A DNA stretch of 34,482 nt, taken from Candidatus Methanoperedens sp. (GTDB lineage Archaea; Halobacteriota; Methanosarcinia; Methanosarcinales; Methanoperedenaceae). Below the pieces are notes generated by a model, which ran no database searches, was not told where the DNA came from, and saw nothing but the letters and a program-made list of their open reading frames with translations. Position 1 is the stretch's first letter. Every line of letters begins with the position of its first letter. The position numbers and the translations under genes are program-made. Shown piece after piece: positions 8,947-31,258 of this stretch. Location of the stretch: positions 1 to 34,482 of the forward strand of contig JAPZAV010000009.1 of assembly GCA_027460465.1 (NCBI GenBank), in the 5' to 3' direction.

Positions 8947-8975
8947 CGTGTGGGAGGAATTGGAAAATAAAACGC

Positions 8976-9017
8976 ATGGCGGCTCTTGAAATAAAAAATC
9001 ATACCTCTGGTTCTTGA
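8976..9017 (+). other. Possible 13-codon leader reading frame
   Basis: An ATG near the predicted transcript start opens a frame of 13 codons. Its TGA stop (9015-9017) overlaps a TTG codon at 9014 that is in frame with the big downstream gene. The arrangement resembles start-stop coupling, but there is no well-spaced ribosome binding site, and it may be chance. Confidence 0.2.
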
Positions 9018-9022
9018 CAGCT

Positions 9023-12000
9023 ATGAAATTAAGCGGCATAATTCCATCGGATGAACAATTAAAACTGATACAGGGAGTGGAAGGTGAGTTGCTCCGCCGC
9101 AAGAGGACAGGGAGGATCAGCGGGATAATAGCCCTTGCTGTTGCTGTTCTTCAGGTCATGCTGGTAGCCATTGAGAAAGATTATATTACGAACATCGGGA
9201 ATTTCTTTAACAACTTGATTCATTTTCGTTTTGATGGATTGATCGGTCCGGACGGCATCCCAATCCCGCAGCTGACAGGAATGCTTGTTCTGGCTGCAAG
9301 CGTCGGAACATACTTCCTGTTCAGATGGACGAATTTTATGCTGAAAGAATCCGAGGAGCCTTTCAGATATACATTCTGGATCAAACCCTTTGAGCCTGTA
9401 AAAGATACGCCCGGTAAAAGGTTCGTTCTTAATAAGGATGACCAGTTCAATCTGCTCCATCATGACCTCATGGAAAGATTGAATGATCGAATTCGAAGGT
9501 TGAAGCTGCTTGATGTGGATTCTTTGAAATTGCCGCCAGGCTCAGAAGAATCGCTTACATCCCACATTTATATCAGCGGGCATTATGCAGTTCGGGAGGA
9601 TAAAGACGGCAGGTGGGTCATTCATGTGATGCCGCGCATTCGCATCGGTCCGCCGAGCAGACCGGAAGCCCTTGCAGAACCCGTCAGGTACCCTCTGAAT
9701 GCACAACCAGGCGAAAAATCCAAAGAAATCTTTGAGGATACTCTGAATGCTGTCAGATATAACCAGATGGTTGAGAGGGTTTATTCCAGAGTTGCCACCG
9801 AGATCTACAGACAGATCTTCAGCGACGTGAAGGGAAAGATCAACATGTTCCCCACCGATTATCTGCGTGCAGTCGCCCTCTTTCATGAAGCAAAAGATTT
9901 TGAAAGATCAAATACCGTAGATGCTTATGGCTATGCCATCGGGTTTTACAGAGAATCGAGGCGCCATTTTGATACAAGGCTTTTTGGAAATGTATCGCGG
10001 TTGCTTTTGAGACTGCCATTATTATGGCGTTTTGCTGCAAACTCCCAGATCATGGAAGCAAGAGCGCGGATAGGATACTCAAGATGTCTTATTTACAGAA
10101 GAGGTATCTCTGCTCTATCCGGCAGGTCCCAGAATACCTTATTTGAGATCCCTGATGAACTGGAAAAAAAGGCAATCCCCGCACTGATAAGATTGCACAA
10201 TCAGATCAACAAGAAATGGAAAATAAAATATTATCAGGATGAGAGTAAAGAAAAGCAGAATCAGTACAACACGCTCATGGCTTTCCTGACCTTCCCGAAG
10301 GATTCCTTATTAAAACGCAATCGAAATCTTTTTGATAAGCAAAGGAAGACACTTTTCGATGCATGTGCTGTTGCTGCTTTAGCATACTCGGATCTTAATG
10401 CTGCAGAAAAAGCCAGGAAGTTCCTTGATAACGCCAAAGCTGTTGATCCGGCCTCAAGCCAGGAACACGCCCTCTGGCTCTTAGCAGCTGCAGAAATCGA
10501 ACCTGATATAAACCAGAAGCTGCTTCTCTTCAGGAAAGCAACCGAGGTCGCGCCCAACTTTGAGTACGCTCAGTACCGTCTGGCACAGTATTCCGAGATG
10601 AGATTGCGCCTGAGAAATGAAATAAATAAAGAAAGGGCAGAAAACGTAATCAAGGAATATGATGAGGTTCTCAGGATCAACCCTGGCAACATTGGCTCTC
10701 TGGCAGCTCAAGGCTATCTATTGTGGCTGCTTGGAGATCTGGAAAAAGCAAAGAAAAAATTCGAAGAAGGGAATGAAATCAAGGCAATCGTCAACCGGAC
10801 TTTTGTGGGTGATCTATACTATGGACTGGCACGGATCGAAGCAGAATCCGAAGCAGAATCGGATCCGGGGCAGTTCATCAGACAGCTCAATAGAAGTTAC
10901 GACCTGTATTTGCAGGCAATTTCAGCAGAACCTGCTGTATGTGCCTATTCCCCCACGACAAGCCGACTGGTCGTCAGTTCATATTACGATTATATGGCTC
11001 TTGATATGCTTATTCGGTTCAAAACGTTCAGGGATAAGGTCGAGAGAAAAATCGAAGCGCTTCGCAATAAAGCAAAGAACCGGGAATATGAAAATGAAGA
11101 AGTTTCAGAAAAGACTCTCAACCTGATTCATAGTTTTGTGCTGAATGACTATGGCAATGCGAATCTGAATTACTTTCTCAGGTTCGGTGACCGCGAAAAG
11201 TTAATTGATGCCATGAATGCCTACAGGTCTGCCATCAAGAAAGATTCAGAGAATGCTGTGGCATATTATAACCGTCATATCGCTTATTTATGGCGCAGAG
11301 AGCCCGGCGATGAAGATAAAGTTCCAAAATGTCTGGAAAAGGCTGAAGAGCTTGCTCGTGCATGGCCTGTTGTACGGATCGCGTCGATCAAAACACAGGT
11401 CAGGCAGATCCAATTTTTGATAAATGATAATAATCGCAAAAAGGAAGAAGCAGAGGAAGAATTAAAAAAGAATAATGAAGAGCTCAAAGCTGCTCAGGAT
11501 AAATTGAAAGAAATAAATGAAAAATCCCTGCTGCAAGAAAAGGGAACCGCAGACGAATTATCACGCATAGAAAAGCTGGGTAAAGAAAAAAAAGAGCTCA
11601 ATGAAATGATAAAAAAGCTTGATAGGGAAAAAGGAGAACTCAACAATAAAACTGTAGAACTGAAGGAAGAAATAGTAAAACTGCAAGAATCGTTGCGCGA
11701 GAAAATTTTTCCGAAAATTGACGAAATTCTGGATCAATCCAAATTCATTTCGCTTTCTGAAGGCCTGAAAATAAAATATGACGGAACCGGAGTAAGTGAG
11801 TTCTGTAAGAAGAACATAGAGAAAGATAAACTGGAAGAAAACGACATAGATGCATTGAGAGCCTGGGCTGAACTCTTATCGAATAATACAGAAAAGAAAG
11901 CGCTTGAAGCATCTGAACAGCTATGTCGTTACATTCTGGATTACTATCCTGAGGACTTTGATACATATGTGATCCTTAATGATATTTCCAGATCACTGGA

Positions 12001-13570
12001 GATACGATCAGAAAAGCCCGACTTTGTAAAGAAAGAGGACTGCATAAAGAGAATAAGAACCATTATTGAAAACTGGTTGAATATAGATCCTATCTATTAT
12101 GTTTCATTAATATGGGCCTCACAGTCTGCAGATTTTTTTGATTTCGAAAAACGCGCCGAGATTCTAAAGAGAGCAATCAAATCTGAAAGTGAAAATGATG
12201 TGTATCATAATATGCTGGGAAAAGTATATTCTGATAAAGCTGATTCCTGCGCTGAAGATCAGTGGGAGCACGCGGTTATTGAATGGGAAAAGGCTGCGGA
12301 GGAATATAAAAAAGCGAATCAGATCAAGCCAGAAAACAACGAATATCGCAGCAATTTGAGCAGTGTTTTGCAGAAAGAAGGAGATAGCTTTTTTGATCAT
12401 GATAATTATCAAAAAGCTATTGAAAAATATAAGGAAGTGCTGGAGCTGAAACCAGGCGATGATATTAGCACAAAACTTGATGAGGCAAGATATGCTCTAT
12501 CCTTTGGTAAAAAGGCATTGGATCAGGCATTCCATCCCACGGTAACCCCAATTCCAGTTGAGGTTGCCAATAATCTCGTGCCTTATGTAGCAGATGAAAC
12601 AAGAACAAAGCTAAATCCGATATTGAGCACCCAGGTTGAAAAAATACGGGAAAGAATAAAGATAACAATGGGAGTTGAAATCCCTGGTATCAAGTTCCGA
12701 CAGCAAGAATCCCTGCCTGATGGCCATTATATAATCATGATAAATGAAATCCCGCTCGAATTAAGAATTATCTCGGAAGAAAAGCGGCTTTTCCCTGGCT
12801 CTATGGAAAGCCTCACAGAACTGAAGATCCAGGGAGAGGAGACGACTGATCCCCAGACCGGAGAAAAAGCCTTCTGGATTTCCCGAAATGACTGGGAAAA
12901 AGTGGAAAACGCAGGCTTGAGCCTCTGGGGAATCAGTGAATACATGGTGATCCACCTGGAAGCTGTGATAAGGAAGAACGTGATTGAACTTTTTGGCCAC
13001 CAGGAAATCATGAATATCATGTATGCCAAAGTGCCTGATATCTATGAACGAATGCAGGAAAAACCTGCAGATCTGAGCTTTCTGACCAGTGTTCTCAAAA
13101 GTCTATTGAATGAGGGTGTACCGATCACTGCCCTGGAAGAGATCGTCGAGACTTTCATGCAATTGAAGGAATCTGGAGCAGACCTTTTCACCATCGTTGA
13201 GACGATACGGAGCATTCCAGAAGTCAGACCGGTGCTGCCTGGCAATAATGACAAATATTCTTTCTATCGGCTCGGCGAGCTGGAAAAAGAGATCAATCGC
13301 TTTATCCATAGAACGGATAATCAGCCTGTTCTGGCCATCGAGATAGATAAGTATCAAAATATATTCAAATCAGTGCAGGAAAAAATAGGTTCAACAGGGA
13401 AAGCAGCGATTATCACTGAAAATGCAGAGCTGAGGCCTTTTGTCAGAAAATTGATCGAGCATAAGTTCCCGGATGTTCCTGTTTTATCCGGAAAGGAATT
13501 GCTGCCTGATCTCGAGATCAGGATCGCCGGAGAGCCCGGAAACCCGGAGGGAAAATATGATAAAAAGTGA
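9023..13570 (+). CDS. Giant membrane-anchored TPR/coiled-coil protein with C-terminal FlhA/SctV-like export-gate domain
   Basis: The 1,515-residue protein has two hydrophobic helices (about 32-50 and 84-101). Positive residues before the first (RRKRTGR) suggest that both termini are cytosolic. TPR-like helix pairs follow, clearest near 480-620, 730-780 and 1080-1150, with a strongly charged coiled coil at about 797-900. From about 1171 the sequence resembles the cytosolic domain of FlhA/SctV: IPVEVANNLVPYV, IRERIKITMGVEIPGIKF, LPDGHYIIMINEIPLE, then LKSLLNEGVPITALEEIVE and ELRPFVRKLIEHKFPDVPVL close to the end. The FlhA eight-helix membrane domain is absent. An alternative TTG start lies at 9014. 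The next gene overlaps by 14 bases and carries a related domain. The function is unknown; a ring or scaffold role is only an inference from FlhA. Confidence 0.85.
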   Translation: MKLSGIIPSDEQLKLIQGVEGELLRRKRTGRISGIIALAVAVLQVMLVAIEKDYITNIGNFFNNLIHFRFDGLIGPDGIPIPQLTGMLVLAASVGTYFLFRWTNFMLKESEEPFRYTFWIKPFEPVKDTPGKRFVLNKDDQFNLLHHDLMERLNDRIRRLKLLDVDSLKLPPGSEESLTSHIYISGHYAVREDKDGRWVIHVMPRIRIGPPSRPEALAEPVRYPLNAQPGEKSKEIFEDTLNAVRYNQMVERVYSRVATEIYRQIFSDVKGKINMFPTDYLRAVALFHEAKDFERSNTVDAYGYAIGFYRESRRHFDTRLFGNVSRLLLRLPLLWRFAANSQIMEARARIGYSRCLIYRRGISALSGRSQNTLFEIPDELEKKAIPALIRLHNQINKKWKIKYYQDESKEKQNQYNTLMAFLTFPKDSLLKRNRNLFDKQRKTLFDACAVAALAYSDLNAAEKARKFLDNAKAVDPASSQEHALWLLAAAEIEPDINQKLLLFRKATEVAPNFEYAQYRLAQYSEMRLRLRNEINKERAENVIKEYDEVLRINPGNIGSLAAQGYLLWLLGDLEKAKKKFEEGNEIKAIVNRTFVGDLYYGLARIEAESEAESDPGQFIRQLNRSYDLYLQAISAEPAVCAYSPTTSRLVVSSYYDYMALDMLIRFKTFRDKVERKIEALRNKAKNREYENEEVSEKTLNLIHSFVLNDYGNANLNYFLRFGDREKLIDAMNAYRSAIKKDSENAVAYYNRHIAYLWRREPGDEDKVPKCLEKAEELARAWPVVRIASIKTQVRQIQFLINDNNRKKEEAEEELKKNNEELKAAQDKLKEINEKSLLQEKGTADELSRIEKLGKEKKELNEMIKKLDREKGELNNKTVELKEEIVKLQESLREKIFPKIDEILDQSKFISLSEGLKIKYDGTGVSEFCKKNIEKDKLEENDIDALRAWAELLSNNTEKKALEASEQLCRYILDYYPEDFDTYVILNDISRSLEIRSEKPDFVKKEDCIKRIRTIIENWLNIDPIYYVSLIWASQSADFFDFEKRAEILKRAIKSESENDVYHNMLGKVYSDKADSCAEDQWEHAVIEWEKAAEEYKKANQIKPENNEYRSNLSSVLQKEGDSFFDHDNYQKAIEKYKEVLELKPGDDISTKLDEARYALSFGKKALDQAFHPTVTPIPVEVANNLVPYVADETRTKLNPILSTQVEKIRERIKITMGVEIPGIKFRQQESLPDGHYIIMINEIPLELRIISEEKRLFPGSMESLTELKIQGEETTDPQTGEKAFWISRNDWEKVENAGLSLWGISEYMVIHLEAVIRKNVIELFGHQEIMNIMYAKVPDIYERMQEKPADLSFLTSVLKSLLNEGVPITALEEIVETFMQLKESGADLFTIVETIRSIPEVRPVLPGNNDKYSFYRLGELEKEINRFIHRTDNQPVLAIEIDKYQNIFKSVQEKIGSTGKAAIITENAELRPFVRKLIEHKFPDVPVLSGKELLPDLEIRIAGEPGNPEGKYDKK

Positions 13571-15194
13571 AATTCTGGATCAGATAAAGGTGGCTATTGA
13601 ACTCTCGCCTTCCCTCAGGCATTTTGCTCTTGCAGAGGAAAATAGAGCTTTTAAGAAAGATCTCATGCGATGTCTGGATGATCTGGTATATGACCTCAGG
13701 ATACCTGCAGAAATATCTTTGACCATAACGCCTGGCGAGGACAGGAATAGATTTTCCTTATGCTCGTATCAGGTCAGCATCAACGACAGGAAATGCAGGG
13801 TTCAGGTCCCGACGATAATTCCCGGCGATGTGCATGCCCTGGAGCTGGCAAATTCGATCGCTTATGAGATTCTCCAGAACCGTGAGCTATTATTAACGCC
13901 CCGCCTGTCTGAAAAGATCCAGGAGAAGTGGATAATTGACGGCATGGCATCTATGGAAAGATTCCATGAAATTCTTTTTGAACTTGTTCGAAGAGGGCTT
14001 CGAATTGATCGCGCAAAAGATATCGCATTGAAAGAACAGAGTGAACAGAACTTTGAGAAGAGTTTTGAAGAAATCTTTTACAACCTGGACTCGATAGCTG
14101 TCAAAGTTTTCCTCAGCAATGCTCAGAATGTGAAGACACAATCAGCTGCTGATGACATGTCATTTGAAGGCTTGCTTGATGTTTTGCAGGAGGGACTTTT
14201 TAATGAGCTCGGAATAATTATTCCAAAAGTCAGTATCGATATGGATGAGATACTTGAGGAGAATGATTTCATAATCCAGTTGAATGATGTTCGATTTCCT
14301 CCTATCACTGGCCTTGAACATGATCAATTTTTGGTGAACGATACTGTTGAAAGGCTTCCCCTTATCAATATAAAAGGCAAAAAAGTAATCATCCCCGCAA
14401 GTGGAACCGAAAACGCTATCGTTCAGAATAAAGAGCATGAGTTAGAGATCTGCAAAAAAGCAGGTTTGACTACATGGGGTTCAGGAGGCTTCACCGTGCT
14501 GAACCTTGCTGCCGAGCTCAGGAAAAACGCCGCCCTTTTCCTGACCGTTGAAACCGTAAAATACAGCCTGAAAAAATTGAAATCCAGTTCTCCGGCGTTT
14601 CCAGCGCTTGTGGATGCGGCATCGGAACATCATGATATCATAAGATTGACCCTCATTTTAAGAGACCTGCTGGATGAACAGCTTTCAATAAAAGACCTTC
14701 GAGGGATCCTGGAGAATCTGCTTGCGATCAGTGGTATTACGGACATTGACCAGAGCAAATATGTTGTTTTTTCTCCTCATACTGCAAATCTGTGTTCAGT
14801 TCAGGAAGGGAAAAAAATGGAGGATCTGAACATCATTGATTATTCGAATTGCCTGCGAATGTCGCTGAAGCGATATATTTCGAATAAATATACGAGAGGA
14901 AGCAGTGCTTTGTATGTATTTCCACTGGATCCCGGGATAGAGATGCGGATCAGGAGCACTGATGAGCAGCCACTGACCGATATAGAACGTGAAAAATTGA
15001 TAAAAGCTATTTATGAGGCAATCAAGAATTTGCCGGCAGCAACCACCAATCCGGTCATATTGACGAGTGTGGAGATCAGAAAAAGACTGAGGAACCTGAT
15101 AGAAAAGGAATTCCCGCGTATTGCAGTGCTGTGCTATCAGGAGCTTTTACCTGATCTGAATACTCAGCCGATCGCCAGGATCTCCTGGGATTGA
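13557..15194 (+). CDS. Soluble FlhA-C/SctV-C-like protein, partner of the preceding gene
   Basis: This 545-residue protein has no membrane segment. An N-terminal domain of about 200 residues is unassigned. From about 200 onward it follows the FlhA cytosolic pattern: GLFNELGIIIPKVSIDMDE, then ICKKAGLTTWG, LRDLLDEQLSIKDLRGILEN, and near the C-terminus VEIRKRLRNLIEKEFPRIAV and CYQELLPDLN followed by QPIARI, very like the FlhA/SctV ending. The ATG at 13557 has GGAGGG just upstream and is preferred to the longer open frame from 13473. It overlaps the preceding gene by 14 bases, so the two are surely co-expressed. Its nearer likeness to bacterial FlhA at the C-terminus suggests the pair arose by duplication or joint acquisition. 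No type III secretion or flagellar gene is nearby. Function unknown. Confidence 0.82.
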   Translation: MIKSEILDQIKVAIELSPSLRHFALAEENRAFKKDLMRCLDDLVYDLRIPAEISLTITPGEDRNRFSLCSYQVSINDRKCRVQVPTIIPGDVHALELANSIAYEILQNRELLLTPRLSEKIQEKWIIDGMASMERFHEILFELVRRGLRIDRAKDIALKEQSEQNFEKSFEEIFYNLDSIAVKVFLSNAQNVKTQSAADDMSFEGLLDVLQEGLFNELGIIIPKVSIDMDEILEENDFIIQLNDVRFPPITGLEHDQFLVNDTVERLPLINIKGKKVIIPASGTENAIVQNKEHELEICKKAGLTTWGSGGFTVLNLAAELRKNAALFLTVETVKYSLKKLKSSSPAFPALVDAASEHHDIIRLTLILRDLLDEQLSIKDLRGILENLLAISGITDIDQSKYVVFSPHTANLCSVQEGKKMEDLNIIDYSNCLRMSLKRYISNKYTRGSSALYVFPLDPGIEMRIRSTDEQPLTDIEREKLIKAIYEAIKNLPAATTNPVILTSVEIRKRLRNLIEKEFPRIAVLCYQELLPDLNTQPIARISWD

Positions 15195-15219
15195 GAGATC
15201 AAAAATGGAGTCAGGCCGA

Positions 15220-15750
15220 TCATTTTCCCGGCTTATCCATGCATCCCATGATGACCGCAGGCACAGCGCCAATAGCAGTACAGGTCTCAAGCGAAACCCC
15301 TTTCGAGGTTATATCGAGATGATACTGCGCCATTTCAAATAATCCTTCCGGCAGACCTCTATGCCCCAGTCCTATGAGGAAAAGAAATGACTTCTTTTTA
15401 TTGATCAGTTCCACAAGTGCATCCACATTGATGGTTTTCTCCCTGGCAGGATGCGATGTGGTCACCACTGCAGAGCCGAACTGCGGTTGGAAACCTTTTT
15501 CAGGGAGATCGAACACAAAGAACCTGCCTTTCCTGAACAGCTCTTCAAGATATCTCCCTGAATCGCCTATGGTTGTCCTGTCCTTCACAAAACTCACAAG
15601 TTCCTCTGCTTTCATATTGAAAGGATAATCAAAAAGTGCAAGATTGAACCCGAAGGCAAATGCAACAGGTGCCGCCCTTGCTATGCTCCTGTAATGAGCC
15701 TCATGGACTTTTATTCTGTCATAGGTGTTCACGATACCCAGGGTCAGCAT
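15220..15750 (-). CDS. DUF531 family archaeal protein
   Basis: The 176-residue protein begins MLTLGIVNTYDRIKVHEAHY, which I recall as characteristic of the archaeal DUF531 family. A SPOUT-methyltransferase-like fold is plausible: a glycine-rich segment LIGLGHRGLPEGL near residue 125 and a C-terminal SLETCTAIGAVPAVIMG could form the knotted cofactor site. The exact reaction is unknown. It starts 3 bases after the stop of the speA-like gene on the same strand, so both probably lie on one message. Its stop is 25 bases from the stop of the convergent FlhA-C-like gene. Confidence 0.7.
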   Translation of the reverse strand: MLTLGIVNTYDRIKVHEAHYRSIARAAPVAFAFGFNLALFDYPFNMKAEELVSFVKDRTTIGDSGRYLEELFRKGRFFVFDLPEKGFQPQFGSAVVTTSHPAREKTINVDALVELINKKKSFLFLIGLGHRGLPEGLFEMAQYHLDITSKGVSLETCTAIGAVPAVIMGCMDKPGK

Positions 15751-15753
15751 TAC

Positions 15754-17640
15754 CTATAAATCCATATACGTGTACTGGTTCATGGCATCCTTATAAGTAT
15801 TCAGGATCCCTTCTGCATCGGTTTTGGATAGTCTATTATCCCTCTGTGCCTGAACCAGTTCTGATTCGAACGTCGTAAGAAGACTGTTGGAATTATACTT
15901 GACATAACCCAGGACATCGCAGTTCCTGTCCCCGTTCACGATCTGTTTGATGTGCCATTCTCCCCGGTCGTCCACTATGATATGCGCTTCATTTGCGGCG
16001 CCGAACAGATTGTGATAATCCCCTATCGTATCCTGGTAAGCTCCGAGCATCAGGATCGCCAGATAATAGGAGCCGTTGTTCAACTCATGGAGTTCAAGGA
16101 TCTCCTTGACGTCCTTTAAGTCCACGAATTTATCTATTTCCCCGTCTGAGTCGCATGTGATATCCACTATGGTGCCGTATTCAGCAGGCTTCTCATTTGC
16201 CCTGCTCACAGGCACTATCGGGAACAGTTGCTTTATTGCCCAGAAATCCGGTATGGACTGGAAGATCGAAAAATTGCCGATATATTTTTTTGAGAGGAGT
16301 TTATTGAGATCCTCAAAGTCATCGGACTTGTTTACGTTTTCTCTGGCAAAGCTTGCGGCTTTTTCGCATATCTGATAGAAAAGGATCTCTCCTTTGGATT
16401 TATCCTCAAGTTCTATCTCACCAAGGTTGAACAATGAAAGCAATTCTTCACGGTGCTGGATAGCATCGTGATAATACTCCACATAATTCTTAATGCTGAT
16501 CTCTTTCAATCCATCATAGAATTCCTTTATGATATGCGGCTCATTTCCCTTCAGTTCTATCTGCTTTTTATTGTTGCCGTTCTTATTGCCTTTGATGTTG
16601 ATGACAAGCAGCGAATGGTATGCGCTTAATGCGCGTCCGCTCTCTGATAATATCACAGGATGAGGAACTCCTTCTTCATCACACACATCTTTCAGGGAAT
16701 ACACAACATTATTGGCATACTCCTGTATCGTATAATTGGCGCTTGCGTCCGAAGAGGTCTTACTGCCGTCATAATCTATGCCAAGCCCGCCACCGATATT
16801 GAAATATTTGATGTTTATATGCATATTTCTTATTTTGGCATACACCCTTGCAGCCTCTTTGACCGCCTTCTGTATCCTCCTGATCTCTGTTATCTGCGAG
16901 CCTATATGGAAATGCAGCATCTGCACCTGCTCGATCATATCATAATCAGTAATGGTCTTTATGCAATCCAGCATTTCAGCAGTTGTAAGCCCGAATTTCG
17001 AGGATTCACCTCCGGATTCCGCCCATTTTCCGCTGCCTTTTGAGTACAGTTTCACCCTGATGCCGATCAATGGTTTTACTCCCAGGCTTTTTGAAAGCTC
17101 GAGCAGGCGTTTTGTTTCGCTGTACTCGTCTATGACAATGATCACCTTGTTTTTTAATTTGACCGAGTTCAATGCCAGTTTGAGATATTCATCATCTTTG
17201 AATCCATTGCATATCAGAGCTGCTTCTGGACTGAGTTCAAAGGACAGGGCTGCAAGCAGTTCTGCTTTTGTTCCCACTTCCAGACCGAGATTGAATTTTT
17301 TCCCGGATTTGACGATCTCCTCGATCACCTCTCTGCGCTGGTTCACCTTCATGGGGAACGCGCTCTGATATGTGCTGTTATACTTGAACTCGGATATCGA
17401 GTTGGCAAAGGCTCCGTTCAGTTCCTTTATCTGCGCTTCAAGGATCTGAGGAAATCTGAATAGAATAGGGAATTTTATTTTTTTTGTGGTAAGATGTTCG
17501 ATCACATTTTTTAGATCAATAATCTGAGCGTCCTTTTTTGTTGGTTTGATTATCAGATTACCATTTTTATTAAAAGAGAAATATCCGTTGCCCCATCGTT
17601 CTATTCCATATAGATCTATTGCATCTTCGATTTTCCACAT
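15754..17640 (-). CDS. speA: Biosynthetic arginine decarboxylase, SpeA type
   Basis: The PLP enzyme converts arginine to agmatine, the first step to putrescine and other polyamines. The 628-residue length is close to bacterial SpeA, and the sequence begins with the SpeA-like IEDAIDLYGIERWGNGYFS. The PLP-lysine segment is AFPMKVNQRREV near residue 97, and other barrel motifs are HFHIGSQ, GGGLGIDYDG and SESGRALSAYHS. A DUF531 gene follows after 3 bases. Many archaea use a small pyruvoyl-dependent arginine decarboxylase instead, so this large bacterial-type enzyme is notable and may have been transferred. The divergent 220-base region separates it from the cytochrome gene. Confidence 0.92.
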   Translation of the reverse strand: MWKIEDAIDLYGIERWGNGYFSFNKNGNLIIKPTKKDAQIIDLKNVIEHLTTKKIKFPILFRFPQILEAQIKELNGAFANSISEFKYNSTYQSAFPMKVNQRREVIEEIVKSGKKFNLGLEVGTKAELLAALSFELSPEAALICNGFKDDEYLKLALNSVKLKNKVIIVIDEYSETKRLLELSKSLGVKPLIGIRVKLYSKGSGKWAESGGESSKFGLTTAEMLDCIKTITDYDMIEQVQMLHFHIGSQITEIRRIQKAVKEAARVYAKIRNMHINIKYFNIGGGLGIDYDGSKTSSDASANYTIQEYANNVVYSLKDVCDEEGVPHPVILSESGRALSAYHSLLVINIKGNKNGNNKKQIELKGNEPHIIKEFYDGLKEISIKNYVEYYHDAIQHREELLSLFNLGEIELEDKSKGEILFYQICEKAASFARENVNKSDDFEDLNKLLSKKYIGNFSIFQSIPDFWAIKQLFPIVPVSRANEKPAEYGTIVDITCDSDGEIDKFVDLKDVKEILELHELNNGSYYLAILMLGAYQDTIGDYHNLFGAANEAHIIVDDRGEWHIKQIVNGDRNCDVLGYVKYNSNSLLTTFESELVQAQRDNRLSKTDAEGILNTYKDAMNQYTYMDL

Positions 17641-17861: not shown

Positions 17862-20800
17862 ATGAAAACCCGACAGGAAAATAAGCCTCCACAGGGCTTT
17901 AAAAGACCACTGGCGTTTGTCCTGATCTTATTTTTGGAGATAATGGTTGTTTCATTGATTTTACACCCGCAACCCGTTTTTACAAACGAAGAGAGAATGT
18001 GCGGTGATCTGACTTTTATGGACAGCTCTGGAAATCTCATCTTCGGCACAATTGAAATAAATATGACAGGGGCACCCGGCGATAAAAGATCAAATGTCAG
18101 CTCCATAAGCTGGAAAGACGTCCCAAATGCACGGATATCCTTTGATGCCCTTGAAACAAAGAACATCTCGCTCAGTCTCAGGATATCAGGAGATTCTCAC
18201 AACAGCAACGTGGTGCTTGAGAATTACGGCACTGATATGCCTGCGAATGTCCAGGCGCCGGGCAAACCTGTAAAATACGTGGAGATCAGCGCTGTGAATG
18301 TTTCTTTCTCAGATGCTTCTGTATCAGTGCAGTACACGGATGAAGAGCTGAAAGGGCTGGATGAAAAAAGCCTCTCCTTTTACAGCTACGACGCAGTGAA
18401 CTCGACATGGAGCGAGCTTGCTGCCAGCGTGGATGCCGAGAAAAATATCTTGAGCGCGACTGTAAGCTCGTTATCTGTGTTTTCAGTAGTTGCAAAATCA
18501 CCTGAAAAGGAAACCAGTGCAGCAGGCGTTAATGTAACAGTGCAGGGGGAGGTGATTGATAAGAACTCAAATAAGCTAAGCATCCACATTAAGAAATCCA
18601 GGACAAAAGCCGGTACCATTTCGCATATGCAGACCGGAAGCACCTATAATTTCAATGACATGCCAGCAGGTGAATACATATTATTCGATGCCAGCGACGC
18701 AGAGAAAGTGTCTGCCAGCTTCAAGATCGAAGGTGACTCGTTAAATAGTAAAGTCAGACTGGAGAATTACAGAACCTCAAATCCTGCACCTTCAGATCCA
18801 CCCGGCACTGCCATCAAATATGTTGACATAAACGCAGTAAACATGAATTTCAGTGAAGCAGAAATCAGGATATTTTATTCCGATGCCGAGCTTGGAGGCG
18901 TAGATGAAAGAACTCTCTCGATTGCCCACTACAAAAACGGGGCATGGTTTAAAGAAGCGACTTCTGTGGACGCGGAGAACAATGTTGCGACTGCAACCGT
19001 TACCTCTCTCTCCACATTTGCATTAATCGCTTCAAATACAAGTTACAATGCAACGCTGTTCATCTATGATACAAAGAACAATGCAGATCCGTCAGATGAC
19101 GTACTTGTGAAAACCGCAGGTCTTACGAATTTACCAGCGAACGGAACTACTTTTGATCTTGGATACGCTGGAAGCATCTACAGAAACAGCACGTATTCTG
19201 TTGAACTGCAGATAAGACCCAACAATACCTATGAGTTCGATGCAGACTATACGAAAGAGACTTTCTTCAAGGCTGGCGTTCCATTCAATACGACTGATTC
19301 AGGCGGCGCGCAATATATCATAAACACCACGCTGGTACCAAAGGATGGTGCAAGAACTGAGGATATCTATGTCCACACCAGTTCAAAAACGAATTACAGC
19401 GCAGATGCCAGTGCCTATGAAGTGGGGACGATAGATGGCGACCTTGATATCATAGCGATTGATGATGGCAACAGGGCAGCATACTGGTTCGAGAACGGAA
19501 ATTCATGGAGCAGGGTAGCAATTGAAAGCACCGATCCTGATGGAAAAAATCCTATTGGACTTGCGGTCGGCGATCTTGATAAAGATGGAGATATAGATGT
19601 GGCTTATTCAAATGATCAGCCAAGCATCTTCATACACGAGAACGACGGGACACCAGGAGGTGCAAACTGGGTTCAGAGGGATATCGGCGCCCCTCCTGGC
19701 GGTGGCATACCCTACGGTCTTGCCATAGCAGACCTTGATAACGACGGATACCCTGATATAATCAGCGGGGACGATTCCCAGGATATATACATTTTCAGAA
19801 ACGACGGGACACCGTTTAACAATGCATGGACTTCTACAACAGTCGAAACAGGGATCGGCGGCACGATCTACAAAGTGGCAGCTGCTGATATAGATCAGGA
19901 CGGCGACCTGGATATTGTCGCAGGCGGTAGCACGAACCTTTACTGGTATGAGAACGACGGCACGCCGTTCAACGGAGGCTGGACAAGAAGAACAATAGCC
20001 ACGGGCATAAGCGGCAACGTGTATTCAGTCGCAATCGGCGACCTTGACAACGACGGCTGGCTGGATGTCATCATTGGCAACAGTGCTCAGGACATAATCG
20101 TTTATCAGAACGACGGCACGCCGACAGGATGGGGAGGAGCAAGCTACACGGTCGATGCAGCAGCAGGAGGCACTGTCTTTGATGTCGAGGTGGCGGACAT
20201 AGATGGCGATGGGTATATTGATATCGCTGCAAGCGTCTGGACTGCAGATGATATTCTGTGGTACAGGAACGACGGTACGCCCTTCAATGCTGGCTGGACA
20301 GAGTACACGATAGACAGCAGCACCAACGGCAACAACCCCTACGGCATAGCGATAGGGGACATTGATTCAGACGGCATACCTGATGTCGCTGCAGGGGTTT
20401 CGGACAGGAATATGTACTGGTATCACAACACAGGCTCTCCTGCCTCAGGTGAGTGGACGCCCACAACAGTGACCTCAACTGCGCTGGGCGGAACTCCGTG
20501 GCGTGTTGCTGTGGCAGATATTGATAACGATGCGAACTCCAATATCATAGATTATTATTATAACGCCACTGAAAGTGCAGAGAAAGGCGTGGACGGCGCG
20601 GAGTTCAGCGGATGGGACAACCTCAGCGCGAACACGAACTACTCCTTCTATTTCATCATCACGCCTGATGATGAATGGGGCGATGACGGTTCCAATGATA
20701 CAGTTACATTCTATGCAGGCAATGAAGCTGGGAACTGGTCCTCGCTTTCAGAACCAAAGTTGTTCGGGGCGATAAGGACGCCCATAAAGGTTAAATGGAC

Positions 20801-23800
20801 CTGGAATGCAGGAGCCCTGATCCCTGTGCCTGCAGGCGTCCAGGGCATAGTTGTGAATAAATACGATGCTCTGCTGAACTGCAACATCACAGCCTACAAG
20901 GAGGATGGAACCACAGGGCTCCACTCCATCTATGGGAGTTCGTTCAACTGGAACGATACATACACGAGATTCTATATCGAAACCAGCGCCCTCTCAACCA
21001 AGAACATCTCTGCAAAGTTCAGGATCAGCAACAACTGGACAAATGCTGTTATAAAGATGGATAATAACGGTCTTTTTAATCCTGAATCACAAAACCCCAC
21101 AGGCACGGTAATCAAGTACATTATTGCGAACACAACCAATGCTTCCTACTCAAACGTAGACGTAAGGATAAGCTACACGGATGCTGAGCTCGGATCAGAA
21201 AACGAGACAAATCTCGCGTTGTATCAGTTCACAGGTTCTTCATGGGTTCTGCTTAATACCACAATAGATACAGTGAACAACATCGCTACAGCAGCCACCA
21301 CATCTTTCTCCACCTTCGCTCTTGTGGCTGTCCATGCGCAGATTAAACTCGGTCTCAACAGGTTCGTTATCCTGGATGACGACTTCACAGGGACGCCTGA
21401 GTCAGGGTTCGTGAATCCAGCCTACGGCTCTGGAAGCGGGCAGCCTGGCGGTGGTGGCGATGATGCTGCAAAAGGGAAGACCACAACGATCACAGCATAC
21501 GCTCTCTATCTCGACGATATAGGCATGCCTGTGCAGGGAAAGAACATCACATTTATCTTCTACAGACCCGCAAGTTACGGCGTATTTCAGACGAAATACG
21601 CAATCACAGACTCAAAAGGACTGGCAAATGCCTCAAGCGATGTGGACGATACCTTCTATTATGGACGGTGGAGGGTGAAGGCTGAAAGCGGCAATCTGAA
21701 TGCCGCATCCACCTTCATCTATAACTGGTGGGGCTGCAACTACAACGCAGGATCCTGCGACAGAGACCACAGCGGCAAGACATGGCCCACAGGTGCGCCG
21801 ATCAGTTCGCCTTATTTGAATGGATATGATAGAGTCGTTGATGAGAAAGGCGATCATCAGAGAGCTGGTATCTGCACTGGATGTCACAGATCGTTTGACG
21901 GCACGAACGGCACTGCAAATAATGTCTATCCTTCCACTGCTTCCACGATTCAATCCGGCATCCATACGGGTATCAGATGCGACAATTCAAGCTGCCACAG
22001 CAGTATTGATGCTCACAGGACAAACGCTGTCATAAGCTCCTGCTACGGCGGGGCAGGCTGTCATTCCTTCAGGACGGACGTCTCGAGCAAAACCATACTG
22101 AACGGCATTTTGAGCGGGTATTCAAATTCCACGAGCACTTATAACAAATACCACACTCCAAATTATACAGTACCCTGCGTCATATGCCATGGACCAATGC
22201 ACAACACCACAAAGCCAGATGAATCGCAGAGACTAATACGAAATTCTGATACAGAGTCCTCTCACTGCACAAGCTGCCACTCAGGATACAAAAAGCACAA
22301 CACGAGCGTGAACTGCACCCTGTGCCACAGCGATGATGTGCATGTGATACAGGTGTTCTCTAAAGAGGCAAAGTACGTGAACTACAGCAACACAAGTTAC
22401 AGAGGTAACTGCACAAACTGCCATCAGAACAGTACGTTCTACACAGCGCTCAAATCCCAGCCAAAGGCTGGCAGCCAGAGCGGCAGGGATCCGCCGCAGG
22501 TAGCCGTACCTCTGGAGCACAGCAATGACCCCGCTGCAGGCGCGAAGTGGAACCAGACCTACTGGACCAACAGCGACCAGCTAACGTGGTGCAAGTACTG
22601 CCACGGCGATACTCTTCATGATGCTGCCGCCCTGGGTCGCCCTTCCAAATGGGATGGTAACAATAAAGTGAACTCCTCGATCGGAAACACATCATGGTGC
22701 GCCTCATGCCACTGGCAGGGGTATGCAAACGGCACGAACACGTACAGCGACATGGTGAACACGTTCGCTGTCAACAGCCTTTTAATCCCTCCTGAAATCA
22801 GCGGCAATGCCGCATACGGAGCAAACCAGAGCATCTACGAGTACACCAACCATTCAGGCTACACAAAATATTATCCAGATCTGAACGACTCCTCATGCAA
22901 CCGCTGCCACGGATACCAGTACGGCTTCACAACCATCACCCAGCTCGTGCACAACCTGACCAGGGTAGGAGGAGCGAACTGCGTGAACTGTCACGATCTG
23001 AACGGGATCGTGCTGCTCTCACATATCAATGTAACCACAACCAATGATACGAATGCACTGCACAGGAACCTCAACGCCGGCGCATCAGCCTCCAATGCTT
23101 CGGCTTATTATTCAAACAACAGGCGGTGCTGGGCATGCCACAGCAACGGCAGCGAACCCTCGACACCAAATGCACATCCCACGAAGTACAGGCTCCCGTA
23201 CAACTGCACGAACTGCCATATCCAGGGCGCAGGGCAGAACTTCAACTATACTCCCTCTGCCGTACTCAATGTCACAGAGCATTACTGGAATGGCTCTGAT
23301 ATACACACGCCCGCGGTCTCCACATGCTACGCCTGCCACAACCTGAGCGAGATGATGATCTTTGCAAATGATCCTGACTCAGGAAGCGGCGCCGTGTACG
23401 GCGGAGTGAACGGCGGGAACAACAGCTCAAGCCACTATGGAAAGAAGCGGGCTGATATGAGGAATGGAATAAGCGCGAACTGCTCCTACTGCCACCAGAA
23501 CATAAGCTCTGCATTTGCTTCGGCAATGCTGTATCCAGCTTATAATACCAGCATCTCAAACCACAGTCTGAGGTACAATTCCTCGACTCCATCATGCACT
23601 TCTTCGCAGTGCCACAATACGGGCTGGATGCACAACTCAACGCTTTTCGTCCAGGGTCTGACCCTGCCGAACTCCACGTTCTGTCTTGGATGCCATGGAA
23701 AGAACGCAACCTCAGGTCTTATCAATTTCACAGGAGCGGTCACTTCGATCAAGGAAAAGCATAACAATACCATAAACTGCACTGAATGTCATCAGAATAC

Positions 23801-24776
23801 CAGCAGGGACATACATCCTGAGAAATACCTCCAGCCCAATGCGACATATAACACAAATAATACCACTGCTGTCACCTGCATCACCTGCCACCAGACCTCA
23901 GGCGCTGACTCAAAGCTCTCAAAAGTCCCGCCAAAGATCCCCTCACCTCTGGCGCACAGCGATAATACCTCGAACGGAAGCGTGTGGAACTCAAGCTACT
24001 GGAATTCTGCTCTGACAGCATGTACATACTGCCACAACGATACAAAACACAACGCCACTGCCCTGGGGAGACCTGCGAGCTGGAGAGGGAACAATATCGT
24101 GAACTCAAGCCTCAGCGGAAGCTCATGGTGCGCTTCATGCCATTATCAGGGCTACTCAGGCGGAGGGAAGAACTACACAGACATGACCCAGACGTTCACG
24201 AAAGCCAATCTCTCTGTTCCTCCTGAGATCACGAACGGGACATATGCAACCGGCATCTACAACCGCTCGACGTACTACAATCACTCGCTGAAGGATTACA
24301 GCGACGCTGCATGCAGGCTGTGTCACGGGATCAATCTGTCCTCGAACACGACAGTAACCCCATTCCTGCACAACGTTACCTGGGGCTCATGTACTGGCTG
24401 CCACTATTCATTCGAGGCTATGAACACCACGTACAGACCTGACAGGTATGTGGATTCTTCGCAGTATAATCTGAGCCTGCACCGCTCATTATCCTGCAAG
24501 AACTGCCATCCTGAAGGACACAGGAACATGGGGGCGCGAAAAGCATGCGAGGACTGCCATGCAGTGCAGGCTGACCCGATACCAGATAAGGACAGGCACA
24601 ATATCACGGCAAAGCCGGGCACGTACTTCTATAATGGAACGAATGTGGTGAACATCACGGACTGCACCACCTGCCACAGCGCATCGCTCTACAACAAAGC
24701 GATCGCGACCTACGGATACTGGAAAGAAAAGGACTGCGATTACTGCCACACATACCCTGATAGATATTATGAGTGA
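17862..24776 (+). CDS. Giant extracellular multiheme cytochrome with FG-GAP and PGF-type domains
   Basis: The 2,304-residue protein starts with one hydrophobic helix (about 15-33), a signal peptide or anchor. Three copies of a roughly 165-residue module lie at about 46-212, 222-391 and 988-1158; each ends in a PGF-pre-PGF-like fold (for example GTAIKYVDINAVNMNFSEAE). Between copies two and three, about 503-895, six full DxDxDG calcium-type FG-GAP/VCBS repeats plus degenerate ones suggest a beta-propeller. An Ig-like domain (1160-1288) leads to the heme region (1338-2296) with 24 CxxCH, two CX4CH and one CX5CH motifs. Asn-x-Ser/Thr sites are very abundant. No C-terminal anchor or PGF-CTERM tail is visible. 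Such proteins are known in anaerobic methane oxidisers and are thought to carry electrons outside the cell. Confidence 0.9.
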   Translation: MKTRQENKPPQGFKRPLAFVLILFLEIMVVSLILHPQPVFTNEERMCGDLTFMDSSGNLIFGTIEINMTGAPGDKRSNVSSISWKDVPNARISFDALETKNISLSLRISGDSHNSNVVLENYGTDMPANVQAPGKPVKYVEISAVNVSFSDASVSVQYTDEELKGLDEKSLSFYSYDAVNSTWSELAASVDAEKNILSATVSSLSVFSVVAKSPEKETSAAGVNVTVQGEVIDKNSNKLSIHIKKSRTKAGTISHMQTGSTYNFNDMPAGEYILFDASDAEKVSASFKIEGDSLNSKVRLENYRTSNPAPSDPPGTAIKYVDINAVNMNFSEAEIRIFYSDAELGGVDERTLSIAHYKNGAWFKEATSVDAENNVATATVTSLSTFALIASNTSYNATLFIYDTKNNADPSDDVLVKTAGLTNLPANGTTFDLGYAGSIYRNSTYSVELQIRPNNTYEFDADYTKETFFKAGVPFNTTDSGGAQYIINTTLVPKDGARTEDIYVHTSSKTNYSADASAYEVGTIDGDLDIIAIDDGNRAAYWFENGNSWSRVAIESTDPDGKNPIGLAVGDLDKDGDIDVAYSNDQPSIFIHENDGTPGGANWVQRDIGAPPGGGIPYGLAIADLDNDGYPDIISGDDSQDIYIFRNDGTPFNNAWTSTTVETGIGGTIYKVAAADIDQDGDLDIVAGGSTNLYWYENDGTPFNGGWTRRTIATGISGNVYSVAIGDLDNDGWLDVIIGNSAQDIIVYQNDGTPTGWGGASYTVDAAAGGTVFDVEVADIDGDGYIDIAASVWTADDILWYRNDGTPFNAGWTEYTIDSSTNGNNPYGIAIGDIDSDGIPDVAAGVSDRNMYWYHNTGSPASGEWTPTTVTSTALGGTPWRVAVADIDNDANSNIIDYYYNATESAEKGVDGAEFSGWDNLSANTNYSFYFIITPDDEWGDDGSNDTVTFYAGNEAGNWSSLSEPKLFGAIRTPIKVKWTWNAGALIPVPAGVQGIVVNKYDALLNCNITAYKEDGTTGLHSIYGSSFNWNDTYTRFYIETSALSTKNISAKFRISNNWTNAVIKMDNNGLFNPESQNPTGTVIKYIIANTTNASYSNVDVRISYTDAELGSENETNLALYQFTGSSWVLLNTTIDTVNNIATAATTSFSTFALVAVHAQIKLGLNRFVILDDDFTGTPESGFVNPAYGSGSGQPGGGGDDAAKGKTTTITAYALYLDDIGMPVQGKNITFIFYRPASYGVFQTKYAITDSKGLANASSDVDDTFYYGRWRVKAESGNLNAASTFIYNWWGCNYNAGSCDRDHSGKTWPTGAPISSPYLNGYDRVVDEKGDHQRAGICTGCHRSFDGTNGTANNVYPSTASTIQSGIHTGIRCDNSSCHSSIDAHRTNAVISSCYGGAGCHSFRTDVSSKTILNGILSGYSNSTSTYNKYHTPNYTVPCVICHGPMHNTTKPDESQRLIRNSDTESSHCTSCHSGYKKHNTSVNCTLCHSDDVHVIQVFSKEAKYVNYSNTSYRGNCTNCHQNSTFYTALKSQPKAGSQSGRDPPQVAVPLEHSNDPAAGAKWNQTYWTNSDQLTWCKYCHGDTLHDAAALGRPSKWDGNNKVNSSIGNTSWCASCHWQGYANGTNTYSDMVNTFAVNSLLIPPEISGNAAYGANQSIYEYTNHSGYTKYYPDLNDSSCNRCHGYQYGFTTITQLVHNLTRVGGANCVNCHDLNGIVLLSHINVTTTNDTNALHRNLNAGASASNASAYYSNNRRCWACHSNGSEPSTPNAHPTKYRLPYNCTNCHIQGAGQNFNYTPSAVLNVTEHYWNGSDIHTPAVSTCYACHNLSEMMIFANDPDSGSGAVYGGVNGGNNSSSHYGKKRADMRNGISANCSYCHQNISSAFASAMLYPAYNTSISNHSLRYNSSTPSCTSSQCHNTGWMHNSTLFVQGLTLPNSTFCLGCHGKNATSGLINFTGAVTSIKEKHNNTINCTECHQNTSRDIHPEKYLQPNATYNTNNTTAVTCITCHQTSGADSKLSKVPPKIPSPLAHSDNTSNGSVWNSSYWNSALTACTYCHNDTKHNATALGRPASWRGNNIVNSSLSGSSWCASCHYQGYSGGGKNYTDMTQTFTKANLSVPPEITNGTYATGIYNRSTYYNHSLKDYSDAACRLCHGINLSSNTTVTPFLHNVTWGSCTGCHYSFEAMNTTYRPDRYVDSSQYNLSLHRSLSCKNCHPEGHRNMGARKACEDCHAVQADPIPDKDRHNITAKPGTYFYNGTNVVNITDCTTCHSASLYNKAIATYGYWKEKDCDYCHTYPDRYYE
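22410..22994 (+). repeat. Heme module, copy A (five CxxCH), within the cytochrome
   Basis: This segment covers five heme motifs (CTNCH, CKYCH, CASCH, CNRCH, CVNCH). Shared landmarks with copy B include an xWNxxYW stretch, ALGRPSKW before an NSS motif, a SSWCASCH-type motif and a PPEI segment. The order and spacing match copy B, showing internal duplication. Confidence 0.8.
23877..24404 (+). repeat. Heme module, copy B (five CxxCH), within the cytochrome
   Basis: The five motifs CITCH, CTYCH, CASCH, CRLCH and CTGCH occur in the same order and with nearly the same spacing as copy A, with shared landmarks ALGRPASW, GSSWCASCHYQGY and PPEIT. The copy is shorter than A by about 19 codons. Confidence 0.8.
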
Positions 24777-29225: not shown

Positions 29226-29525
29226 ATGATTGTACCAGAGCTGGGATATCTGGTGGAGCTTAATGTGAGAAGTATGTTTGCTGAATTGAAAGATATTCTT
29301 GGTAAAGAAGAAACTATTATTGGAGGTATTGGTGGATTTATCGCGGCATCCACGCTAACTCACGGTGAAATATCTACAGCTATGTCAGCCATAATCATGA
29401 GAACCTTAGAATTCGGGATTGGAATATACCAGACCAATCCATTAGGTGAATCAAACATAAGTAATTTTAATTGTTGCTCTTGCAAGTCCCGGCGCCACTC
29501 TGATCTATCAAAAAAATGGGGATAA
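29226..29525 (+). CDS. Small membrane-associated protein, probably frameshifted at its end
   Basis: The frame encodes 99 residues. It has a hydrophobic glycine-rich part (TIIGGIGGFIAASTLTHGEI) and then an unlikely basic, Cys-rich tail (NCCSCKSRRHSDL). In the neighbouring frame from 29461 a membrane-helix-like stretch VILIVALASPGATLIYQKNG reads straight into the winged-helix gene at 29527. A one-base shift around 29455-29461 would join all parts into a protein of about 185 residues with a membrane helix and DNA-binding tail. Whether the shift is mutation, sequencing error or two separate genes cannot be told here. Confidence 0.45.
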   Translation: MIVPELGYLVELNVRSMFAELKDILGKEETIIGGIGGFIAASTLTHGEISTAMSAIIMRTLEFGIGIYQTNPLGESNISNFNCCSCKSRRHSDLSKKWG

Positions 29526-29526
29526 T

Positions 29527-29790
29527 GTGATAAAGAGGAAGGAAAGGAGTAGATGGGAGATAATTGAGGATATGCTAACGGTATTAGTGGAGGGCAATAA
29601 ATCGAAAAAGACACGAATTATGCAGAGGGCGTATCTTGATTGGAGAAACTTCAGGAGATATTTTGACTTTTTATTAGAGGAGGGCTTTATTGCAAAATGC
29701 AATAATCTTGATGCAGATAATTATGAACTTACAGAGAAAGGGAGGGAGTTGTTGAAGAGATTGAAGGTAATCGATGAGATTCTGAGTTAG
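29527..29790 (+). CDS. Winged-helix DNA-binding protein
   Basis: An 87-residue sequence from GTG has the archaeal winged-helix pattern: RWEIIEDMLTVLVEGNKSKK for the first helix, TRIMQRAYLDWRNFRRYFDF for the recognition region and ELTEKGRELLKRLK at the end, which closes the wing. Such single-domain regulators are common in archaeal accessory regions. The frame is open upstream to 29461 without an ATG, and the reading VILIVALASPGATLIY suggests a lost upstream part joined with the gene at 29226. Targets are unknown. Confidence 0.65.
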   Translation: MIKRKERSRWEIIEDMLTVLVEGNKSKKTRIMQRAYLDWRNFRRYFDFLLEEGFIAKCNNLDADNYELTEKGRELLKRLKVIDEILS

Positions 29791-29920
29791 AAAGAAGTTC
29801 GAGAATTTCAACTTTAATGATTTCGTTGTCAACCTTTTAAATCTTTATGAATAAAGTCTTTTTCTTTTTCTCAAAGAAAGCAAAGCAAATTTCAGATGGC
29901 AGCAATCAATATAGGGGTGG

Positions 29921-30130
29921 ATGATGCTAGAAACTCCTGAGGAAAGGGTAAAATTATTGAAAGCAGGGTTTACGGGTAAAACAATCGAAAAACTATATAT
30001 TCACTATAACAATTTTAAAATAGTTAGCAATCCTGATTTCATCGAATTGATTGAATTTAATATCCTGCAAAATAAAAGAACCGAGTCAACGTGGGTGCGA
30101 TGCACTTACGCTGCAAGCAGCGACATATAA
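29921..30130 (+). CDS. Small unknown protein with repeated helical motif
   Basis: Sixty-nine residues begin MMLETPEERVKLLKAGFTG and continue KTIEKLYIHYNNFKIV, a compact amphipathic sequence. GGGGTGG lies just before the ATG pair at 29921/29924, supporting translation. The last 15 residues (WVRCTYAASSDI) differ in character, so the original C-terminus may have been lost by truncation. I do not assign a family or function. Confidence 0.45.
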   Translation: MMLETPEERVKLLKAGFTGKTIEKLYIHYNNFKIVSNPDFIELIEFNILQNKRTESTWVRCTYAASSDI

Positions 30131-30426
30131 TTCTTGTTGTTGCATTTTGATTTTATATCGATCATGTTCCAAAGAAGGTGCTGTGGGGGCATCTGTTATA
30201 TGAAACATGCGGCAATATGTCCGAGGACATTAATGCTAATGAGTGGATTGGTAGCGGGATTGAAGTAGGGTTAAAAGCGTTCCTCCAACCCACTCTCTGT
30301 GGATAATGATTTTTGCGGCTATATGAAACTATCTAACAATTTTTATAATAATTGTGGTTATTATCTGCATTTATATGACCATGATAATTGGGTTGATCAT
30401 AAAACCTGAACCCATTTCTGTAAAGT
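30131..30426 (+). other. Stretch without a confident gene
   Basis: Nothing clear is encoded in this part. A weak frame from GTG at 30354 to 30512 would give 52 residues with one hydrophobic helix (VVIICIYMTMIIGLII), but it overlaps the minus-strand pseudogene and has no visible ribosome binding site. No tRNA, CRISPR or known insertion sequence is visible. Confidence 0.3.
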
Positions 30427-30783
30427 TCAGTACAGGGAGGGCAGATTCCTTTTCACGTAATCCGGCAGGTTGGGCTGCAGAACAATTCGATTTAAAAAAT
30501 TCTTGTCGTTAGCGACGGTAGGGGGATCAAGATTCAATGGGCTCAGAATCTCTGAGAGTGGAACAGTCTCTGTAACCAGGACTGGTGAGCGGGCAGTTTC
30601 TAAACCATGTGGCCCAAGGGGTAGATATGGTCAGGCCATGCCCGCTGGTTCATCAAGCTCCAGCATCAAGAACCATTGTGGCTCAACAGCTTCAATGGCA
30701 GCACGTATCTCTTGTGAGAAGGGTGTTCCAATTTTCGTGCCAGCTGCAGTGTCCTGTAACATGCTGCCATGTTTTTCATGCAT
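30427..30783 (-). pseudogene. Minus-strand gene remnant with one in-frame TGA
   Basis: From an ATG at 30783 the frame reads 50 codons (including GTKIGTPFSQEIRAAIEAVE and WFLMLELDEPAGMA), meets TGA at 30631-30633, and continues in the same frame for 67 codons (including GPHGLETARSPVLVTETVPL and NRIVLQPNLPDYVKRNL) to a final TGA at 30427-30429. Residue composition on both sides of the stop is protein-like, unlike the Ser/Arg/Cys-rich plus-strand reading. I do not recognise the protein. A nonsense mutation in a small gene is the simplest explanation; readthrough is possible but not supported by any nearby signal. Confidence 0.4.
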
Positions 30784-30862
30784 TTATAATACAAAATCAG
30801 GTACGGTAGAAACATATGTCAATTGAAACTTACAACAAGTCTACGGGCATTACACCTTGAAT

Positions 30863-31033
30863 TCATCGCCCAAAAAGCAAAATTAATAAAAATAAGGAAA
30901 GAATCAGTATCAATATCGCTAAAATAATCATTTTATTGAGTTTGTTTTGCTTCTTTTTTATAGTTCTTTCTAGTTCAATGAGGTCGTTTGTTAGTCTTTT
31001 TAACTCACTGTACTTTTTTTCTTTTTCATTCAT
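30863..31033 (-). CDS. Small coiled-coil protein with C-terminal membrane tail
   Basis: The 56-residue sequence has a charged helix EKEKKYSELKRLTNDLIELE followed by lysines and a hydrophobic tail MIILAILILILSLFLLILLF that nearly reaches the C-terminus, as in a tail-anchored protein. The frame could also start at 31069, adding 12 residues; neither start has a clear ribosome binding site. Family unknown. It may be membrane-bound with its helix in the cytosol. Confidence 0.45.
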   Translation of the reverse strand: MNEKEKKYSELKRLTNDLIELERTIKKKQNKLNKMIILAILILILSLFLLILLFGR

Positions 31034-31258
31034 CAGAAAAATTCCCGAATTCCCGGTTGTATTTCTCATGCAAAGCGCAAGTTGTTTACAGAATTGATAT
31101 GTCGCCTTTAACGGTGCAGGTTTTTAAATCCATTACAGTTAAAACATAGTTTGTTTATATATATAAATGAGTGCTTACAAGATATGGAATTTCTACTGAA
31201 CCTGTTTTTATGAAAAAATTAGCTGAAAAACCCGGCAGTATGTTAGAGAACACTTCAA

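Follow-up and report, generated by a model that had tools for sequence, protein, structure and literature searches.

Adjacent archaeal genes with SctV-type export-gate domains and a possible link to caspase-like proteases

The 34,482-nucleotide stretch of a Candidatus Methanoperedens genome analysed here (contig JAPZAV010000009.1, assembly GCA_027460465.1; hereafter the window) contains two adjacent genes, A and B, whose products both end in the cytosolic domain of the type III export gate FlhA/SctV and both lack its membrane channel. In a distant methanogen relative, the pair is kept in the same order within a five-gene operon that also encodes a CHAT caspase-like protease and a protein resembling type III chaperones. 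The co-option of a secretion domain is well supported by these data. More specifically, we propose that A and B derive from a type III system, move horizontally as a pair and serve as an oligomeric signalling or defence scaffold based on the cytosolic domain of SctV (SctV-C), a reading that we consider evenly poised between right and wrong. To our knowledge, type III export gates are known only within bacterial flagella and injectisomes.

Export-gate domains of proteins A and B

The open reading frame (ORF) of gene A starts with ATG, and residues 1173-1496 of its product correspond to positions 329-655 of the 657 positions in the Pfam family FHIPEP (PF00771). The match reaches 151.5 bits and that of protein B 120.6 bits, both exceeding the curated cut-off of 29.1 bits. 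A phmmer search against solved structures matched SctV-C and FlhA-C chains along the entire A domain, with Chlamydia CdsV (6wa6; E 7e-25; residues 6-334 of the 346-residue query) as the best match, and Yersinia YscV (7qij) matching with E 5e-23. On sequence grounds, the homology of the A domain to the FlhA/SctV cytosolic domain is certain, as an earlier note made from the DNA letters had claimed. That note had also described the eight-helix export part as missing from A. Indeed, this part (PF00771 positions 1-310) is unmatched in A and B; the matches begin at about positions 315-329 and cover only the cytosolic profile. In the curated whole-protein models, A scores equally for FlhA (TIGR01398, 127.8 bits) and SctV (TIGR01399, 127.7 bits). 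The respective equivalog cut-offs of 772 and 692 bits are reached by neither A (128/128 bits) nor B (86/137 bits).

The AlphaFold2 model of A is of low confidence (predicted local distance difference test score, pLDDT, 51.7; alignment of two sequences). Using this model, Foldseek returned FlhA-C or SctV-C in all 50 of the 50 matches listed (best E 9e-10), with template modelling (TM) scores of just about 0.4. This structural comparison, which the earlier note had proposed, agrees with the sequence matches, but these scores do not independently establish the geometry of all four subdomains. The remaining architecture, which that note had read as two membrane helices, tetratricopeptide repeats (TPRs) and a coiled coil, was recovered by hydropathy (the second segment being weaker), Pfam and residue composition. 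Among the Pfam TPR matches, the one at residues 546-577 is weaker than those at 724-755 and 1116-1146.

The earlier note was wrong in stating that the window shows no type III genes, as gene B carries a second SctV-C domain. Gene B starts within the end of gene A, with an overlap of 14 bases. Its domain favours the SctV model (137 bits) over the FlhA model (86 bits), and its C-terminus is the SctV-type signature VLCYQELLPDLNTQPIARISW, with the pattern VLxYQELxPDxxxQPxxRI. The N-terminal 190 residues of B gave their best match among solved structures with EscV, a weak one (E 0.16). In comparison with SctV-C, one local score of this region was not exceeded in any of 200 column shuffles, but other settings were inseparable from shuffles. 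The region is possibly a degenerate partial copy of SctV-C, a weak signal that is only suggestive. The features of both genes are summarized in Table 1.

Table 1. Features of genes A and B (window coordinates)
Feature	Coordinates	Strand	Description
Gene A	9023..13570	+	1515-aa protein: two hydrophobic segments, TPR, coiled coil, TPR, SctV/FlhA cytosolic domain
Membrane-helix-like segment 1 of A	9116..9172	+	Residues 32-50; hydropathy 2.66 over 19 residues
Membrane-helix-like segment 2 of A, weaker	9263..9319	+	Residues 81-99; hydropathy 1.42
TPR-containing region of A	10520..11422	+	About residues 500-800, approximate bounds; Pfam TPR_11 724-755, TPR_17 546-577
Coiled-coil-like stretch of A	11423..11662	+	Residues 801-880; judged by composition: E/K/R/Q/L-rich, charged, G/P nearly nil
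C-terminal TPRs of A	12284..12460	+	Residues 1088-1146 (Pfam); within the part kept in the methanogen relative
SctV/FlhA-type cytosolic domain of A	12539..13510	+	Residues 1173-1496; PF00771 E 4.5e-44, solved-structure matches, Foldseek
Shine-Dalgarno-like GGAGGG ahead of gene B	13546..13551	+	Within the end of gene A; read directly from sequence
Gene B	13557..15194	+	545-aa protein; start agrees with methanogen orthologue
N-terminal region of B	13557..14126	+	About 190 aa, 50% conserved, no family match
SctV-type cytosolic domain of B	14139..15182	+	Residues 195-542, insert at about 395-425; PF00771 E 9.9e-35

Distribution, ancestry and the operon of the methanogen relative

The host assembly (2.87 Mb, 100% complete, a draft of 176 contigs) was searched family by family. 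Beyond A and B, no further FHIPEP match was found across the host genome. FliP/SctR gave no match at E <= 1 in the host or methanogen genome, with all four flagellated control genomes above the cut-off, and FlhB/SctU yielded nothing above threshold in either archaeon, only a sub-threshold match of 12 bits. A hidden type III system in the host genome, lacking both FliP/SctR and FlhB/SctU, is therefore unsupported. The model of LcrH/SycD chaperones found only generic TPR-level matches in the host genome, the best at 47.6 bits.

The pair is rare. None of 30 congeners of the host has FHIPEP above the cut-off, and among 393 genomes drawn from the phylum the family occurs in only one other genome. 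Orthologues of A and B were confined to the same two genomes among 238 of the window's class and 232 of the relative's class. The second genome, G115, is a Methanomicrobiales metagenome-assembled genome from the SPRUCE site (JACTUA010000006.1), and it was also the sole match in a scan of a genome collection. Here, the orthologues are adjacent and keep the order A-B, a conserved neighbourhood of the kind that the earlier note had suggested looking for in related genomes. Scans of viral contigs found no relatives. The top-listed plasmid match to A, a Priestia FlhA, was rejected as a channel-less relative, as it proved to be a standard FlhA of 692 aa encoded among flagellar genes in their operon. 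The arrangement is rare, and the literature searched contains no report of it. Bacterial relatives of the pair may exist, as bacterial genomes were covered only narrowly by the searches.

To assess ancestry, a tree was built from six FlhA and four SctV cytosolic domains together with the archaeal A and B domains. The two A domains pair with each other, as do the two B domains (support 100/100 each), and the duplication is therefore older than the split of the two loci. All archaeal domains cluster with SctV and are separated from FlhA (support 98/98). This tree and the SctV-type C-terminus of B disfavour a flagellar origin. The affinity of B to SctV and the LcrH/SycD-like partner in the methanogen both point to an injectisome-type source, although the ten bacterial sequences in the tree are few for naming the exact donor.

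In G115:C8 (locus L011), five contiguous genes form an operon in the order P0007, CHAT, A, B and LcrH/SycD-like. The first product, P0007, comprises 351 aa (L011 5894-6949) and has no Pfam or NCBIfam match. The CHAT caspase-like protease (PF12770, E 3.4e-13) retains its His-Cys dyad in the motifs HFIGHG and HACKG. Protein A of G115 (898 aa; TPR and SctV-C) has no N-terminal membrane region and is 46% identical to A of the window over residues 1041-1504, while protein B (544 aa) is 55% identical to its counterpart. The last product, a 155-aa TPR protein, aligns end to end with the LcrH/SycD model TIGR02552 at 102.5 bits, slightly below the curated cut-off of 104.8 bits; the next-best TPR stretch in either genome scores 53 bits. 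Furthermore, it matches the solved chaperones PcrH, AcrH and SycD. The GC content at third codon positions (GC3) of the operon is 0.40-0.47, compared with 0.80-0.83 in mutL and mutS immediately upstream, and total GC drops at the border from about 0.64 to 0.42. Due to this foreign composition, the operon represents a recent acquisition. A calpain-like gene (Peptidase_C2, L011 14030-15187) was dropped as an operon member, as it follows 730 bases after the operon with a GC3 of 0.66. Elsewhere in this genome (G115:C6, about 154000-173800), an open frame of 6719 residues is filled with TPR-type repeats.

Relatives of P0007 on plasmids connect the family to proteases. In Pseudanabaena, a relative with 46% identity has a caspase on one side and conflict-system genes on the other, the plasmid also encoding MoxR and VMAP-C; in Rhizobium sp. 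TH2 the relative adjoins a CHAT gene, and in Sporomusa a papain-type protease. Altogether, the family stands beside a caspase, CHAT or papain-type protease in four of five loci (L011 and the plasmid relatives L034, L049 and L050). P0007 is an unnamed partner of caspase-like proteases, and these neighbourhoods therefore tie the G115 operon to caspase-like conflict systems. Ternary conflict systems of MoxR, vWA and VMAP with caspase or CHAT effectors have been described (Kaur et al. 2020, eLife 9:e52696), in a text that does not mention FlhA. No MoxR, vWA or VMAP was found among the archaeal operon proteins; such genes surrounded only the plasmid relative of P0007.

Proposed mechanism and alternative explanations

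In bacteria, SctV and FlhA assemble through their cytosolic domains into rings, in most cases nonameric, on which complexes of chaperone and substrate dock; YscY, a TPR chaperone, occupies the cleft between subdomains SD2 and SD4 of YscV, and the ring needs SD3 and SD4 (PMC8213127, PMC9163089, PMC5932034). We suggest that this ring-forming docking domain was detached from the membrane channel and duplicated, with one copy becoming joined to a TPR/coiled-coil receptor (A) and the other to a short extra N-terminal region (B). By analogy with the bacterial SctV-C rings, A and B most likely assemble in this way too, as a homo- or hetero-oligomer. In the archaeon of the window, the ring would be tethered at the inner membrane face by the N-terminal segments of A. 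The LcrH/SycD-like TPR chaperone may escort its partner to the cleft of SctV-C in the manner of type III chaperones, and in the methanogen operon the CHAT protease with its P0007-type partner would be the output. Partner loading or sensing by the TPRs could then alter the state of the ring, by which the protease would be activated or localised. This specific signalling mechanism is moderately supported. A more novel reading, in which the SctV-C ring domain and an LcrH/SycD-like chaperone were recruited beyond secretion as an apoptosome-like scaffold for a CHAT protease, moving horizontally among archaea, is offered tentatively and falls somewhat short of an even chance.

Several observations weigh against a protease-linked scaffold. 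The window locus consists of A and B only, without CHAT, chaperone or P0007 genes, and the single CHAT gene of the host is found on another contig, beside genes of the extracellular contractile injection system (eCIS) type. Of the only two loci known, just one includes genes for the protease, the chaperone and P0007. In the archaeal domains, the residues of the flagellar chaperone cleft are not kept (A has Thr at the position of Phe459), nor are the two arginines, 551 and 669, through which YscV contacts YscX; for both, positions were mapped by alignment and the numbering is inferred. Due to these losses, the binding mode of any partner of A or B must differ in detail. In addition, the AlphaFold2 model of B (pLDDT 32.5, two-sequence alignment) lies below adequate confidence, and PADLOC contains no model for either protein. 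The earlier note had envisaged a co-opted, membrane-bound oligomeric scaffold or docking platform. The scaffold idea fits the new evidence, but since protein A of G115 lacks the N-terminal membrane region, membrane anchoring is not constant.

The absence of that region also weighs against the leading alternative, in which A and B retain a role in secretion without a type III channel, as a membrane-bound platform that passes chaperone-bound cargo to an archaeal exporter or surface machine such as Sec/Tat, pili or an eCIS. In its favour, SctV-C ancestrally serves to dock chaperone-substrate complexes (PMC9163089, PMC5932034), A of the window has membrane-helix-like segments, the G115 operon retains an LcrH/SycD-like chaperone, and the host encodes a CHAT protein together with genes of the eCIS type. 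However, an exporter gene is adjacent at neither locus, and the operon neighbours in G115 are a protease and P0007 instead of export parts. We regard this explanation as rather unlikely, though more likely than the other alternatives.

A conserved, non-immune housekeeping or stress scaffold, with the methanogen CHAT operon as a local accident, would account for a window pair that stands alone with the GC3 of host genes (0.45-0.46). Yet the pair is missing from the 30 congeners and from all other searched genomes of both classes, and in the relative it is carried by an island of foreign composition; such patchiness is rare for housekeeping genes, which makes this reading improbable. Type III secretion is otherwise bacterial and the assembly is a draft, so that a degraded type III remnant of bacterial origin, or a misbinned bacterial contig, had to be considered as well. 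Against this, the reading frames of A and B are uninterrupted over 4.5 and 1.6 kb and are flanked by archaeal genes (NMD3, DUF531 and an archaeal pilin), their composition fits the host, and orthologues with 46-55% identity are intact in another archaeon. Contamination was consequently rejected, the host is an archaeon as the earlier note had stated, and a remnant or artefact is extremely improbable.

Genomic surroundings and relation to known systems

The neighbours of the pair in the window are ordinary archaeal genes, encoding NMD3, a sugar epimerase, DUF531, arginine decarboxylase, an archaeal pilin and DNA ligase. Further along the window, positions 17862-24776 encode a giant multihaem cytochrome of secreted type (2304 aa). 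It joins FG-GAP repeats to MtrC/MtrF-like domains and numerous CxxCH haem motifs, and its front half is of the propeller type. Together with the phylum placement, this cytochrome suggests a Methanoperedens-like host. About 1.7 kb at approximately 29500-31250 contain no convincing ORF and no Rfam match. On another contig of the host genome, locus L032 (G000:C173:18001-37646) encodes at 8951-16380 a protein with a CHAT domain and, at its C-terminus, a zinc-ribbon-like motif. Two eCIS_core (PF13699) proteins are encoded nearby, making this an archaeal locus of the extracellular contractile injection type.

A duplicated gate-ring domain accompanied by a type III-like chaperone, with the channel lost, reveals which piece of the exporter can travel as a module. 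The pair offers a minimal system for studying the SctV ring and its chaperone by themselves. If the link to CHAT is true, it would add a new type of oligomeric sensor or scaffold to prokaryotic caspase-like immunity, and this addition would fall in archaea, where such immunity systems are little known.

Among known systems, SctV (LcrD/YscV/CdsV/InvA/EscV) is the closest, its cytosolic domain being homologous over the full length to those of A and B, which group with it. In contrast to SctV with its eight-helix membrane part, A and B carry TPR/coiled-coil or other N-termini and are two side-by-side paralogues in a genome without FliP/SctR or FlhB/SctU. FlhA shares the domain family, and A scores alike on both models, but A lies far below the FlhA equivalog cut-off of 772, has no membrane domain, carries Thr in place of the cleft Phe and falls outside the FlhA clade. 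The class II chaperones LcrH/SycD are matched end to end by the 155-aa protein of G115, which differs in scoring slightly under the cut-off and in having no translocator genes seen in its operon; no such chaperone lies beside the window pair. Finally, the MoxR-vWA-VMAP systems have caspase-like effector proteases in common with the archaeal operon, and a P0007 relative resides in a MoxR-VMAP locus in Pseudanabaena, whereas the archaeal operon has no MoxR, vWA or VMAP genes.

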